Of a DNA stretch of 64,000 bases, positions 5,739-30,010 are shown one piece after another (within the stretch, counting starts at the first letter, position 1; each line of letters begins with the position of its first letter). The notes beneath the pieces are model-generated. The model worked only from the letters and a program-made list of their open reading frames with translations, ran no database searches and had not been told where the DNA came from. The DNA is from Phycisphaerae bacterium (lineage in GTDB: Bacteria; Planctomycetota; Phycisphaerae; Sedimentisphaerales; Anaerobacaceae). The stretch covers positions 142,158 to 206,157 of the forward strand of contig JAQTLP010000004.1 in NCBI GenBank assembly GCA_028714855.1. Reading direction: 5' to 3'. The position numbers and the translations under genes are program-made.

Positions 5739-5885
5739 GCGCAGGGGGGTAAAAAATTGCCTACCATTTTCAACCATTTTCCGCACACTTTGTCTCACTT
5801 TTGCGCGCGTTTTTACCAATTTTTAGCAATTTCTACCACGTTACACCCACCAAAAACCACCAACTTGCGCGTTTGATGCTACCCC
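5739..5885 (-). repeat. 147-bp dispersed intergenic repeat, copy 1
   Basis: Read on the minus strand, this matches 26542-26687 at roughly 85 percent by eye over its whole length, starting at GGGGTAGCATCAAACGCGC and ending at CCCCCCTGCGC. It contains several GTAGAAATTGCTAAAA-type words and a CGCGCAAAAGTGAGA core. The rest of the 5593-5972 gap shows only AT-rich DNA and a common genomic word (AAATCCGTGAAATCTGTGG). Confidence 0.85.
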
Positions 5886-5972
5886 AAATTCCCCATTTTG
5901 CTTATTTTACCAGCAACGGCTGGCTAAAACGACCCCATTTTTGACTAAAAACTCGACATTAAAAACTCAAAA

Positions 5973-26478: not shown

Positions 26479-26541
26479 GTTGAAAATATGTCAAGTGAGA
26501 TGTCGGAAGTGTTCTGTTGGAATGGGGACAATGGGTAAAAT

Positions 26542-26687
26542 GGGGTAGCATCAAACGCGCAAGTTTGCGTTTTTAGGCGGGTAGAAAGTGGTAGAAATTG
26601 CTAAAAGCTGCTAAAAATGCGCGCAAAAGTGAGAGAAAGTGCGCGGAAAATGTTGAAAATTGCAGTGGATTTTTTACCCCCCTGCGC
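26542..26687 (+). repeat. 146-bp dispersed intergenic repeat, copy 2
   Basis: The plus strand matches the minus strand of 5739-5885 at about 85 percent by eye, with sharp matching ends (GGGGTAGCATC and CCCCCCTGCGC). It lies just before coaE's 5' end in opposite orientation. The 26690-26900 stretch beyond it is AT-rich filler with a CCGCCAGAGGCGG word and no credible gene. Confidence 0.85.
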
Positions 26688-26904
26688 GAATTGTTCGAAG
26701 CGAACAAGCGCGGGAAAAATTTCAAAAAACAAGCGACAAAATTCAAATAAATTCCAATCACCAAGATACAATCCGCCAGAGGCGGATAAAAATTCAAAAC
26801 AGAAATTAGCCGTGAAGAAAAATTAACTACGTGGCGTAAGCTATCCCAAGGGGAGATGGACATGAAGGGACACAAATTTTTTAGATGCTGGTTACGCAGG
26901 GGAG

Positions 26905-26927
26905 AATACCTAAGATACTTAGGTATT
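26905..26927. repeat. PadR-operator-like palindrome 1
   Basis: Perfect arms AATACCTAA and TTAGGTATT around GATAC. It lies 80 bases beyond the padR stop codon, with no gene start nearby. Confidence 0.85.
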
Positions 26928-26992
26928 CTTCTTCTCACAATTTAAGATAAAGTCGAAGTGTAGATAGCCAAAGCGAACGGCAAGACGGAATA

Positions 26993-27015
26993 TAATACGC
27001 AAGATGCTTAGGTAT
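26993..27015. repeat. PadR-operator-like palindrome 2, degenerate
   Basis: Three mismatches to the 23-base consensus (AATACGCAA, GATGC, TTAGGTATT). It contains the TAA stop codon of padR, so coding sequence and motif overlap. Confidence 0.6.
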
Positions 27016-27334
27016 TGGCAGTCAGTTTGTTCATACATTTGGAAAAGGCGAGCCATTCGGTTCGGTTCGCGAGGAGTAACTGCCTGCCTTTGCTGGTAAG
27101 GTGGTAGTATTTTCGTTTTCTGGCGATCCCCGCAGGTCTCCATCTGCTTTTAACCAGCCCGGCTTTTTGCATATTGTGCAGAGTTGTATAGACGGCGGAC
27201 TGTCGCCATTCAAAAAAGCCTTTGGTTTGACGATTAACAGCCTGGATAAGGCCATAGCCATACACTTCTCGGTTTTTGAGGATTGAGAGGATTACAAATT
27301 TGATGCTTCCTTTTATAATCTGATGGCAGAACAT
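27008..27334 (-). CDS. PadR-family transcriptional regulator
   Basis: A 108-residue winged-helix protein. The PadR signature is clear: KFVILSILKNREVYGYGLIQ, then SAVYTTLHNMQKAGLVKS (recognition helix and wing) and KRKYYHLTSKGRQLL. The short C-terminus makes it a PadR subfamily-2 type member that dimerises by a last helix. GGAG lies nine bases before the ATG. Its promoter is covered by a 21-23 bp palindrome repeated eight times in the surrounding 1.3 kb, so strong autorepression is likely. PadR proteins usually answer phenolics, drugs or envelope stress and control a neighbouring pump, but none is seen here. Confidence 0.9.
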   Translation of the reverse strand: MFCHQIIKGSIKFVILSILKNREVYGYGLIQAVNRQTKGFFEWRQSAVYTTLHNMQKAGLVKSRWRPAGIARKRKYYHLTSKGRQLLLANRTEWLAFSKCMNKLTANT

Positions 27335-27377
27335 TCGACAATTCTCCTATTACGAATTATAAGTAATTTTCCAAAGG

Positions 27378-27412
27378 ATACCTAAGATACTTAGGTATTC
27401 TTTGGACGTCAA
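27378..27412 (-). promoter_or_regulatory. padR promoter with overlapping palindromic operator (copy 3)
   Basis: On the minus strand TTGACG (complement of 27407-27412), 17 bases and TATCTT (complement of 27384-27389) make a promoter. The palindrome ATACCTAA-GATAC-TTAGGTAT at 27378-27398 covers the -10 and the end of the spacer. This lies 44 bases before the padR start. Confidence 0.8.
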
Positions 27413-27531
27413 GCATAAAATTGTTTTGTGGGGATTTTAAGCAGGGGGCGTTAAGCATAAGATTGTTTTGTGGGGATTTTAAGCAGGGGGCGTTAAGCAT
27501 AAGATTGTTTTGCAGGGCTTTAAGAAGGGAC
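27408..27531. repeat. 42-bp tandem repeat, three units
   Basis: Units begin at 27408, 27450 and 27492, each reading GT(C/T)AAGCATAA(A/G)ATTGTTTTG then GGGATTTTAAGCAGGGGGC with small changes in the third. The first unit carries the padR -35 box, so the array seems to have grown from the padR promoter edge. Confidence 0.9.
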
Positions 27532-27564
27532 GTCGCTGCATGATGCGGAACAGTCGCTGAGGGG

Positions 27565-27587
27565 AATACCTAAGATAGTTAGGTATT
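27565..27587. repeat. PadR-operator-like palindrome 4
   Basis: Perfect arms AATACCTAA and TTAGGTATT around GATAG; start of the first 88-bp unit, followed by CTTTCTG on the plus strand. Confidence 0.85.
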
Positions 27588-27652
27588 CTTTCTGTCAGTC
27601 GAAGCTTTTTTGGCGCTGGGTTTTGAGAAGAGACCCGGCTATGTGGAGGGAT

Positions 27653-27675
27653 AATGCCTAAGATAGTTAGGTATT
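27653..27675. repeat. PadR-operator-like palindrome 5
   Basis: One arm mismatch (AATGCCTAA) around GATAG; start of the second 88-bp unit. Confidence 0.82.
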
Positions 27676-27740
27676 CTTTCTGTCAGTCGAAGCTTTTTTG
27701 GCGCTGGGTTTTGAGAAGAGACCCGGCTATGTGGAGGGAT

Positions 27741-27763
27741 AATGCCTAAGATAATTAGGTATT
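27741..27763. repeat. PadR-operator-like palindrome 6
   Basis: AATGCCTAA, GATAA, TTAGGTATT. On the plus strand it is followed by CTTTTTATC, and on the minus strand preceded by TTGATA, a -35-like word. Confidence 0.82.
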
Positions 27764-27902
27764 CTTTTTATCAAGCGGGGATTTTTAGATGCCGGGGGTT
27801 GAGAAATGGTGGTTTTGAGAAGGAGTGGCTGCCACCGGGGGCAGGTTGGTCGCTGGTTTCTGGCCGCTAGTCACTCCGCCAGTTACAGGGACCGGCAAAG
27901 AG

Positions 27903-27925
27903 AATACCTAAGATAGTTAGGTATT
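27903..27925. repeat. PadR-operator-like palindrome 7
   Basis: Perfect arms around GATAG, followed by TTTTCTTTCG on the plus strand. No gene start lies within 300 bases. Confidence 0.83.
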
Positions 27926-28169
27926 TTTCTTTCGAATCCATGGGTTGAAAATGCCGGGAATTGAGAAGTGGGGATTTTTTTGGGGGGATGGTTTTGGGGT
28001 TGACGGATTGGAGGATAGAAAGATTGAAAATCAATCCGCCTTCGCTGAAACTTAGGCGAGACAAGTCTGTCTTCGCCGAGGCTGCAGCGAGACGCTGCGC
28101 GAATGCAAAAATAAAAATTGTGGAGCCCCTTCGCGGGGGAATTTAGTCGTCGTTCGGAGTGTGGAGTAT

Positions 28170-28192
28170 AATACCTAAGATAATTAGGTATT
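28170..28192. repeat. PadR-operator-like palindrome 8
   Basis: Perfect arms around GATAA, then CTTTTTTTTG. This copy lies 305 bases before the DUF6132-like gene. Between copies 7 and 8 (27930-28140) are common genomic spacer words such as CCGCCTTCGCTGAAACTT, without a credible gene. Confidence 0.83.
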
Positions 28193-28496
28193 CTTTTTTT
28201 TGTCTGCTGGATTTGAGAATGCAGGGGTTTTTTCTTTTTTTGGGCGTTTTTTTGATGTTGACGGGGTGGGTTGCCGCCGAAGGCGGAGAACAGTTGAACA
28301 GTGGAGCAGTTGAGCAGTAGAAAAGGACGGAGGAAAGAGGTTGCATGAATTTTGAAAGTGGGGTAAAATTTATGTGCACCTTTGGAGAGGAGGCAACCTT
28401 TGGGTTCGTGATAAGCGTTTAATCGTTAGTATTCAGCAGACTGGAATTGAGGATATTTTTTATTGCTCTGCGGTGTATAAAATGAAGGCAGTGAAA

Positions 28497-28655
28497 ATGA
28501 GAATTATCACAGGTGTACTTATCGGCGGGGGTGTAGGATTTCTGGTCGGTTACTTTGGTAAATGCGCATCCGGGACATGTCCATTTACAAGCAATCCGAT
28601 TGTAAGCACAATAATCGGCGCATTGTTAGGAGGATTACTCGCTGCAGGAAAGTAG
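28497..28655 (+). CDS. Small membrane protein, DUF6132-like
   Basis: A 52-residue peptide with two hydrophobic segments (IITGVLIGGGVGFLVGYF and STIIGALLGGLLAAG) separated by GKCASGTCPFTSNPI. The paired cysteines and TSNP in a G-C-x-SG-x-CP context match my memory of the DUF6132 family, often found near thiol, sulfur-transfer or rhodanese genes. The start at 28497 is chosen because AAGG lies before it; the frame is open back to 28374 but without a ribosome site. Function is unknown. Confidence 0.72.
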   Translation: MRIITGVLIGGGVGFLVGYFGKCASGTCPFTSNPIVSTIIGALLGGLLAAGK

Positions 28656-28806
28656 AAAAGAAGGTAAAATATGGCGAGCACCTAGGGCATGCTTCGCACA
28701 ACGGCGGAGAAAAAGCATCGGGAGATTAGTAAATTTCCGGCTTGTGTTTGGCGAGAATTGGCAGGAGGTGGAAATAGGTAGGTGGATTTAGGTTTTTAAT
28801 GGATTA

Positions 28807-29796
28807 ATGATTACCAAGAAAACAGTGCTAGTTTTAGGGGCGGGGGCAAGCGCACCTTTTGGTTTTCCAACAGGGCAAGGCCTTAAAGACAAAATTTGTT
28901 ATTTGCTCGACACAGGAGCTACAATTAAGGAGTTGACGAAGCTTAAATTTACTCCAGATGAGATTAATAATTTCAGACAGGCCCTGATAAAGTCACCACT
29001 TTTTTCTGTTGACGCGTTCTTGGAACGTCGTAGTGAATTTGAGCGTGTTGGTAAGGCGGCGATTGCTGCTGCACTGCTGCCGTGCGAGAAAACCCACGGT
29101 CTTTTCGATGATTGGATAGAGAAGAGAAAAAAAGAGAATAGTAAGGATTCTAACGAAAAAGAAGGTAATTGGTACGACCAGTTGTTCAACGCCCTTAACA
29201 CAGAATTTGACAAATTAAATCAAAATAAACTCTCTATCATCACTTTTAACTATGACCGCTCACTTGAGCAGTATCTTTTCACGGGCTTAAGAAATACCTA
29301 TGGCCGAACTAGCATTGAATGCGAAGAAAAGTTGAGCGAAATTCGAATATTACACATATATGGCAGTATAGGTCATTTACTGTGGAACAGACCTGATGAT
29401 TTGAGCGTAGAATACGATTCTTGTGATTCTATAGCAACAGCAAAACCAATCGGGATTGCGATGAAAAATATAAAGATTATACCTGAAAATAAAAACGTAG
29501 AAGAAATAGAGGAATTCAAAGAGGCGCGACAATTACTAAGGTCTGCCGAGCGAATATACTTTCTGGGTTTTGGATACCATCCAATGAATCTTGAAAGATT
29601 AGGTGTGAAATGGTTAACTCGCCAAAACGGTCAAGATATACAAGGCACTTCACTGGGATTATCCGTTGGGACACGGGAATTGGTCAATAGATTAACCTAT
29701 TCAGTAGCTAACGCCCCGGCGAGACTATTTTGTGCGCTACGTGACTGTACAGTTTGGAGGTTTTTCCACGACTACGTATCTTTAAAAGATGTTTAA
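28807..29796 (+). CDS. SIR2-like domain protein, possible defence NADase
   Basis: A 329-residue protein with a SIR2-like Rossmann fold. The NAD-binding start is VLVLGAGASAPFGFPTG (residues 7-23). The catalytic-region landmarks of the SIR2_2/defence type are present: SIITFNYDRSLEQYL near 143 and ILHIYGSIGHLLWN near 182. A later IYFLGFGYHPMNLERL (near 250) completes the fold. There is no membrane segment and no fused partner domain. Stand-alone SIR2-like proteins in bacteria often deplete NAD on phage infection, but some have other roles. The gene is AT-rich compared with housekeeping neighbours, has a poor ribosome site, and is followed by a terminator. Confidence 0.78.
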   Translation: MITKKTVLVLGAGASAPFGFPTGQGLKDKICYLLDTGATIKELTKLKFTPDEINNFRQALIKSPLFSVDAFLERRSEFERVGKAAIAAALLPCEKTHGLFDDWIEKRKKENSKDSNEKEGNWYDQLFNALNTEFDKLNQNKLSIITFNYDRSLEQYLFTGLRNTYGRTSIECEEKLSEIRILHIYGSIGHLLWNRPDDLSVEYDSCDSIATAKPIGIAMKNIKIIPENKNVEEIEEFKEARQLLRSAERIYFLGFGYHPMNLERLGVKWLTRQNGQDIQGTSLGLSVGTRELVNRLTYSVANAPARLFCALRDCTVWRFFHDYVSLKDV

Positions 29797-29863
29797 ACAA
29801 AATACTAACCGAAGCGGAGGGTGTTGGTAAAAATCAATCATTCATTTCAAGGGAAAAGAAATA

Positions 29864-29959
29864 AGAGATTGCCGCGGCCAACGGCCTCGCAATGACAGAG
29901 GCGGGAGTAACCCCTGCCGCGAGCGGCAGGGCTAACCAACCCCCAAGCAGGCTTGGGGG
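29864..29959. repeat. Dispersed spacer words with two hairpins
   Basis: GAGATTGCCGCGGCCAACGG followed by CCTCGCAATGACAG is a word common in many bacterial genomes. Two GC-rich hairpins follow: CCCTGCCGC/GCGGCAGGG (29912-29931) and CCCCCAAGC/GCTTGGGGG (29940-29959). Neither has a T tract. Confidence 0.6.
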
Positions 29960-29974
29960 CTAAACGAGAATGAT

Positions 29975-30002
29975 AACCCCCAACATAAAGTTGGGGGTTT
30001 TT
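29975..30002 (+). terminator. Intrinsic terminator after the SIR2-like gene
   Basis: AACCCCCAAC (29975-29984), loop ATAAA, GTTGGGGGTT (29990-29999), ending in a run of five Ts (29998-30002). The stem could also serve the convergent glycosyltransferase gene. Confidence 0.82.
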
Positions 30003-30010
30003 GGACGCGG

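Follow-up and report, generated by a model that had tools for sequence, protein, structure and literature searches.

The question raised by this locus is why a small gene for a PadR-type regulator should lie among eight copies of one 23-bp palindrome, and whether those copies form a regulatory array or have some other origin. In the reading that we favor, and consider probably correct, padR is a PadR-s2 gene that regulates itself and its operator has turned into a REP-like repeat that is now dispersed, the unit having spread between genera of one Sedimentisphaerales family. Features of the region are listed below in coordinates of the window, which is the whole 64,000-nucleotide stretch of DNA that was analyzed; the genome from which it comes is referred to as G000, and related genomes by other G numbers.

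26479–30010: insertion between coaE and a glycosyltransferase gene; contains padR with the array, along with a DUF6132 ORF and a SIR2-like ORF
26905–26927, plus strand: palindrome 1, exact
26981–27445: interspecies unit, composed of the stop-codon palindrome, padR, the promoter palindrome and the start of the spacer
26994–27016, plus strand: palindrome 2, with three mismatches; extends over the padR stop codon and forms the edge of the unit common to G016 and G086
27008–27334, minus strand: padR, 108 amino acids, PadR-s2 type (Pfam PadR, 2.6e-21)
27348–27344, minus strand: AGGAG ribosome-binding site of padR
27356–27361, minus strand: probable padR -10, TATAAT, predicted from sequence; palindrome 3 would then be on the -35 position
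27377–27399, plus strand: palindrome 3, predicted operator in the padR promoter
27404–27529, plus strand: 42-bp tandem repeat of three units, which lengthens the spacer upstream of padR
27565–27587, plus strand: palindrome 4, exact
27565–27767, plus strand: 88-bp tandem duplication carrying palindromes 4–6
27653–27675, plus strand: palindrome 5, one mismatch; lies within the 88-bp tandem duplication
27741–27763, plus strand: palindrome 6, one mismatch; end of the 88-bp tandem duplication
27903–27925, plus strand: palindrome 7, exact
28170–28192, plus strand: palindrome 8, exact

A sequence search of the window for AATACCTAAGATANTTAGGTATT returns eight sites between 26905 and 28192, all in a single shared orientation, which bears out the eight palindromes in 1.3 kb that the first-pass annotation had counted; a chance origin of the array is ruled out by dinucleotide shuffles, 100 of which yielded none. 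Seven of the eight palindromes are within 0–1 base of the consensus, and the copy at 26994 has three mismatches, two of them in one arm and one in the center. Elsewhere in the genome (2,310,481 bases) there are only three close copies, at C1:185033, C11:38552 and C2:173096, together with one poor match at C10:49925, such that eight of the eleven lie within 1.3 kb. A uniform genome-wide density of the palindrome, which the annotation had named as the outcome contrary to its proposal, is ruled out by this whole-genome search. The center of the palindrome is GATAN, and where N is C it forms a 10+3+10 dyad (CCTAAG ATA CTTAGG); in variants found elsewhere the symmetry is kept through paired changes, as CCTAAC TTA GTTAGG in G002 and CATACC...GGTATG in G016. 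In both G000 and G002 the dispersed copies and the array copies have the same flanks, purine-rich on the left and CTTTT on the right. The combination of palindrome and CTTTT might be taken for a transcription terminator or an mRNA-stabilizing hairpin, and several copies do form stable hairpins (z about -5 to -7), and in G000, G002, G013 and G016 most copies are followed by a T-rich tract. However, a terminator scan places none at the palindromes, there is no T tract in G052, G078 and G099, the longest T run belongs to copy 8, whose hairpin is weak, and eight terminators without a preceding plus-strand gene would make little sense; we consider a role as an RNA element to be highly improbable.

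The PadR fold of the padR product is clear at the level of sequence. It contains a PadR winged-helix domain (PF03551; 2.6e-21, with 75.9 bits where 27 is the cut-off). Among solved structures it is closest in sequence to cdPadR1 of Clostridioides difficile (PDB 5DYM), which is in the same subfamily by sequence, as are other PadR-s2 autoregulators such as LmrR. At 108 amino acids, the product has the short C-terminal part of PadR-s2 proteins, in which a single predicted helix carries a conserved tryptophan: Trp94 is invariant in four orthologues and aligns with the last-helix tryptophan of 5DYM, and this residue together with 5DYM as the nearest relative fits the PadR-s2 assignment. Between orthologues dN is well below dS (0.049 and 0.33 for G000 and G002; 0.101 and 0.48 for G000 and G016), which indicates that the product has been under purifying selection. 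It has the sequence features of PadR-s2 proteins, with DNA binding and repression as predicted activities.

Palindrome 3 overlaps the padR core promoter under either choice of promoter. The first-pass annotation had set one copy on the padR -10 box, and the overlap with the core promoter stands; the palindrome covers the -35 position if TATAAT is the -10, however, and covers the -10 only with the alternative promoter TTGACG/TATCTT. All four orthologues have this palindrome starting 62–65 bp before the padR start codon, with 20–21 of the 21 core positions kept. The 21-bp core can be written as ATAC-N13-GTAT, and when at least seven of its eight bases are required within a 110-bp upstream stretch it is found upstream of 19 of 26 other PadR genes of the same taxonomic family, compared to 1.8 expected from base shuffles and none downstream of those genes; because these paralogues belong to a small number of related groups, they do not amount to 26 independent trials. 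One group has ATACATAG-N5-CTATGTAT or something near it, with the same geometry as ATACCTAA-N5-TTAGGTAT. The full ATACCTAA half-site is mostly non-significant gene by gene when compared with the paralogue upstream regions, and the signal common to the paralogues is the outer ATAC/GTAT plus the 21-bp spacing. We note that the 21-bp ATAC-N13-GTAT inverted repeat lies ∼70–120 bp upstream of most PadR genes of the family (loci L068–L091), and it provides a usable rule for predicting their operators. cdPadR1 provides a published parallel: it requires TACT(N11–12)AGTA, with a core rich in AT, in the promoter of its own gene (PMC5050560); the inverted repeat in the padR promoter has the same spacing, as TACC-N11-GGTA. 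The palindrome also occurs in all four genomes with a padR orthologue and in five of 85 others (P about 5e-5). Its position in the promoter, the family footprint and the cdPadR1 parallel support the operator identity well, and the co-occurrence also fits; the palindrome is very probably the operator of PadR, as the annotation had proposed. PadR dimers would bind ATACCTAA-N5-TTAGGTAT over the core promoter and repress padR.

The annotation had also drawn on VanR, whose half-site is reportedly given as TTAGGTATTT in a 2015 VanR paper. VanR of Corynebacterium glutamicum is a PadR-like repressor (PMC8358305). The target of VanR is a catabolic operon, and no such operon lies close to padR here. Comparable support from the literature is provided by cdPadR1. 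Were each palindrome the operator of an adjacent gene besides padR, the cdPadR1 motif would be a precedent, being likewise reported at many other places in its genome (about 200; PMC5050560), and the DUF6132 ORF does begin about 180 bp after palindrome 8. However, most copies, including the remote ones, lie hundreds of bases from gene starts or after gene ends, and the arrays of different species have only padR in common, which makes such a regulon barely credible. The extra sites differ from those of cdPadR1 in being near-identical 23-bp copies clustered around the gene, with shared flanks and with padR fragments in relatives, and they thus appear to be duplications rather than scattered motif matches.

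The end of padR is also marked by a palindrome. One arm of palindrome 2 includes the stop codon (ACC TAA, Thr-stop), and because a palindrome is present at the padR stop codon in all four orthologues, the gene is bracketed by palindromes in each of the four species that have it, the two being 381–384 bp apart. The unit so defined is 88% identical to G002 (26981–27445), 82% to G016 (26993–27429) and 73% to G086 (26992–27334); homology to G016 begins at 26993 and to G086 at 26992, which is the palindrome edge, and to G002 13 bp earlier. Pieces of the unit also occur separately. The promoter palindrome, the spacer and the next palindrome recur in G016 as a pair (∼117–128 bp apart) at several loci without a complete padR, one of which retains a 5′ stump of the gene; the 3′ end of padR is found three more times in G086, adjoining palindromes; and G013 has five scattered single palindromes, four of them with shared flanks, and no padR orthologue. 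Single dispersed palindromes are also present in G000 and G002. There are about 5 to 15 copies per genome, and the numbers for the relatives are lower bounds because the key contigs are short (4.4 kb in G002, 16 kb in G016 and 7.9 kb in G086) and several end near palindromes, with mis-binning being possible; the window itself comes from a syntenic contig of 208 kb, which makes the main case secure. Beyond the family, the palindrome is found in none of the 72 other genomes of the order, nor in a class sample. The relatives are Planctomycetota MAGs obtained from a protein search, one of them named Sedimentisphaerales, for which absence and context are less certain.

These patterns bear on whether the eight sites act jointly and are kept by selection, either to set the level of PadR by acting as decoys or to provide a PadR–DNA complex with a nucleation or partition-like site. 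The palindromes are better conserved than the spacers and cluster tightly around padR in both G000 and G002, and cdPadR1 is able to build higher-order complexes on DNA (PMC5050560). However, the spacings are irregular, do not match whole helical turns, and are not conserved in sister species other than at the padR-length 383 bp; at least two of the copies are plain tandem duplication products; and G013 keeps single copies with neither an array nor a padR orthologue. Joint function is in our estimation unlikely, and the nucleation array for DNA bridging that the first-pass annotation had suggested fits poorly with these spacings. Its other suggestions were titration of PadR and a selfish operator repeat, and the last of these is the best fit of the three, given the palindromes at the unit edges, the dispersed fragments and pairs, and the signs of horizontal movement.

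The order rho–coaE–glycosyltransferase is kept in G001, G013 and G016 (in G002 the contig stops past coaE). Between coaE and the glycosyltransferase gene there are 3,532 bp here, compared to 67 bp in G016, 127 bp in G013 and 803 bp in G001; the shorter gaps show that the array sits in an insertion. The neighbors of padR differ in each species, being coaE here, trmB/dprA in G002 and hflX/gpsA in G016 (the G002 and G016 names were assigned from translations), and G001, of the same genus, has neither padR nor the palindrome. Since the loci differ between species, the padR array is not a fixed regulatory locus, a point that the annotation overlooked. Between G000 and G016, dS for padR is 0.48 (synonymous proportion 0.35), compared to 1.61 (0.66) for coaE and a saturated proportion of 0.77 for rho; padR is short, with roughly 75 synonymous sites and a standard error of the proportion put at about 0.055, and the gap stays clear. 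A padR dS so far below those of rho and coaE indicates horizontal transfer. As to plasmid or phage origin, there is no match in PLSDB, INPHARED or IMG/VR. No target-site duplication was identified at this level of divergence, and padR is the only gene common to the units.

Several other observations concern insertion sites. The SIR2-like ORF (28807–29796) adjoins the array and partially matches PADLOC SIR2 profiles (7e-7), and is possibly a defense gene. The same gap in G001 holds a Y1/RAYT-like transposase gene (L124:4611–5156), which, set beside the padR insertion here, suggests an insertion hot spot between coaE and the glycosyltransferase gene. Palindrome loci are also near the same genes in different genera, with hflX/gpsA in G013 and G016 (L056:5135, L057:1143–1781) and trmB in G002 and G016 (L048:2320–3119, L060:5436–5575); these coincidences could reflect old shared sites, hot spots or chance.

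Where palindromes are dispersed in a bacterial genome, the usual explanation is a linked RAYT transposase. What sets the padR repeat unit apart is that repeats of this sort normally move together with a transposase and not a repressor. REP/REPIN–RAYT systems (REPtrons) have short extragenic palindromes that are single or paired, a bracketed gene, and dispersed copies without the gene (PMC3733652), and the repeats described here resemble them in all of these. Unlike a REPtron, however, the bracketed gene encodes a PadR repressor and not a Y1 tyrosine transposase (RAYT), the copies number about 5 to 15 per genome where REPtrons often have over 100, and the GTAG/CGTC tag that is a feature of REPtrons is absent from the flanks of 18 copies in G000 and G002. 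Without a linked RAYT, a high copy number or the tag, we do not file the padR repeat unit as a REPtron. The palindromes might instead be REPs or REPINs moved in trans by a RAYT or other transposase, with padR as a passenger and a secondary resemblance to an operator; they are short, paired in G016, dispersed and bracket a gene, a Y1 gene is present in G000, and in G001 a Y1 gene occupies the site of the window's array. However, no Y1 gene occurs in G002, G013 or G016, three of the four relatives that are most informative, G001 has five Y1 matches yet no palindrome, the GTAG/CGTC tag does not adjoin the palindrome, and the palindrome fits the PadR footprint; mobilization of this kind seems to us improbable.

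Spread of an autoregulated padR gene together with its operator remains our preferred reading. A padR gene bracketed by its own operator would constitute a small duplicating unit, from which palindrome-bearing pieces multiply both in tandem and at dispersed positions. The gene and its palindromes would have moved as a unit among genera of one Sedimentisphaerales family, as supported by synteny, unit edges and dS. The extra palindrome copies are probably duplication products and at most decoys: they would control no conserved gene, and if they soak up PadR then padR expression would settle by copy number. Recombination between the palindromes or the surrounding repeats could explain the local arrays, but not obviously the dispersed single copies. 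Several points count against the preferred reading: no transposase is consistently linked among these genomes, the copy number is low for a REP family, and G013 has near-perfect copies without a padR orthologue, such that an operator role alone is insufficient. It is conceivable, if doubtful, that the unit is a self-spreading minimal mobile element, in which binding of PadR to the palindromes aids copying, targeting or control of the unit and the operators outlive the gene in the form of dispersed repeats. In the literature searched, which was mostly outside subscription journals, we saw no PadR gene described with a repeat family of this kind. Should the preferred reading hold, a regulator would be able to spread together with its binding sites as a family of repeats. 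Operators could in this way be distributed directly across a genome, giving rise to new regulatory links, and padR would be a natural example of an autorepressor titrated by copies of its operator.

Other repeats occur in the vicinity of the palindromes. A dispersed repeat of ∼240 bp (26530–26769) is 88.8% identical to a segment of contig C1 of G000 (L043:5491–5729, reverse), 85.5% to 5739–5897 of the window and 88% to L045:7664–7774, and it adjoins palindromes at two places. ORF remnants resembling 'ETNPIFKMPKM...KRTQTNPI' lie near palindromes in G000, G002 and G013 (L048:3756–4106, L044:3883–4233, L051:3843–4769 and L056:3509–4711), and are probably another intergenic repeat family.
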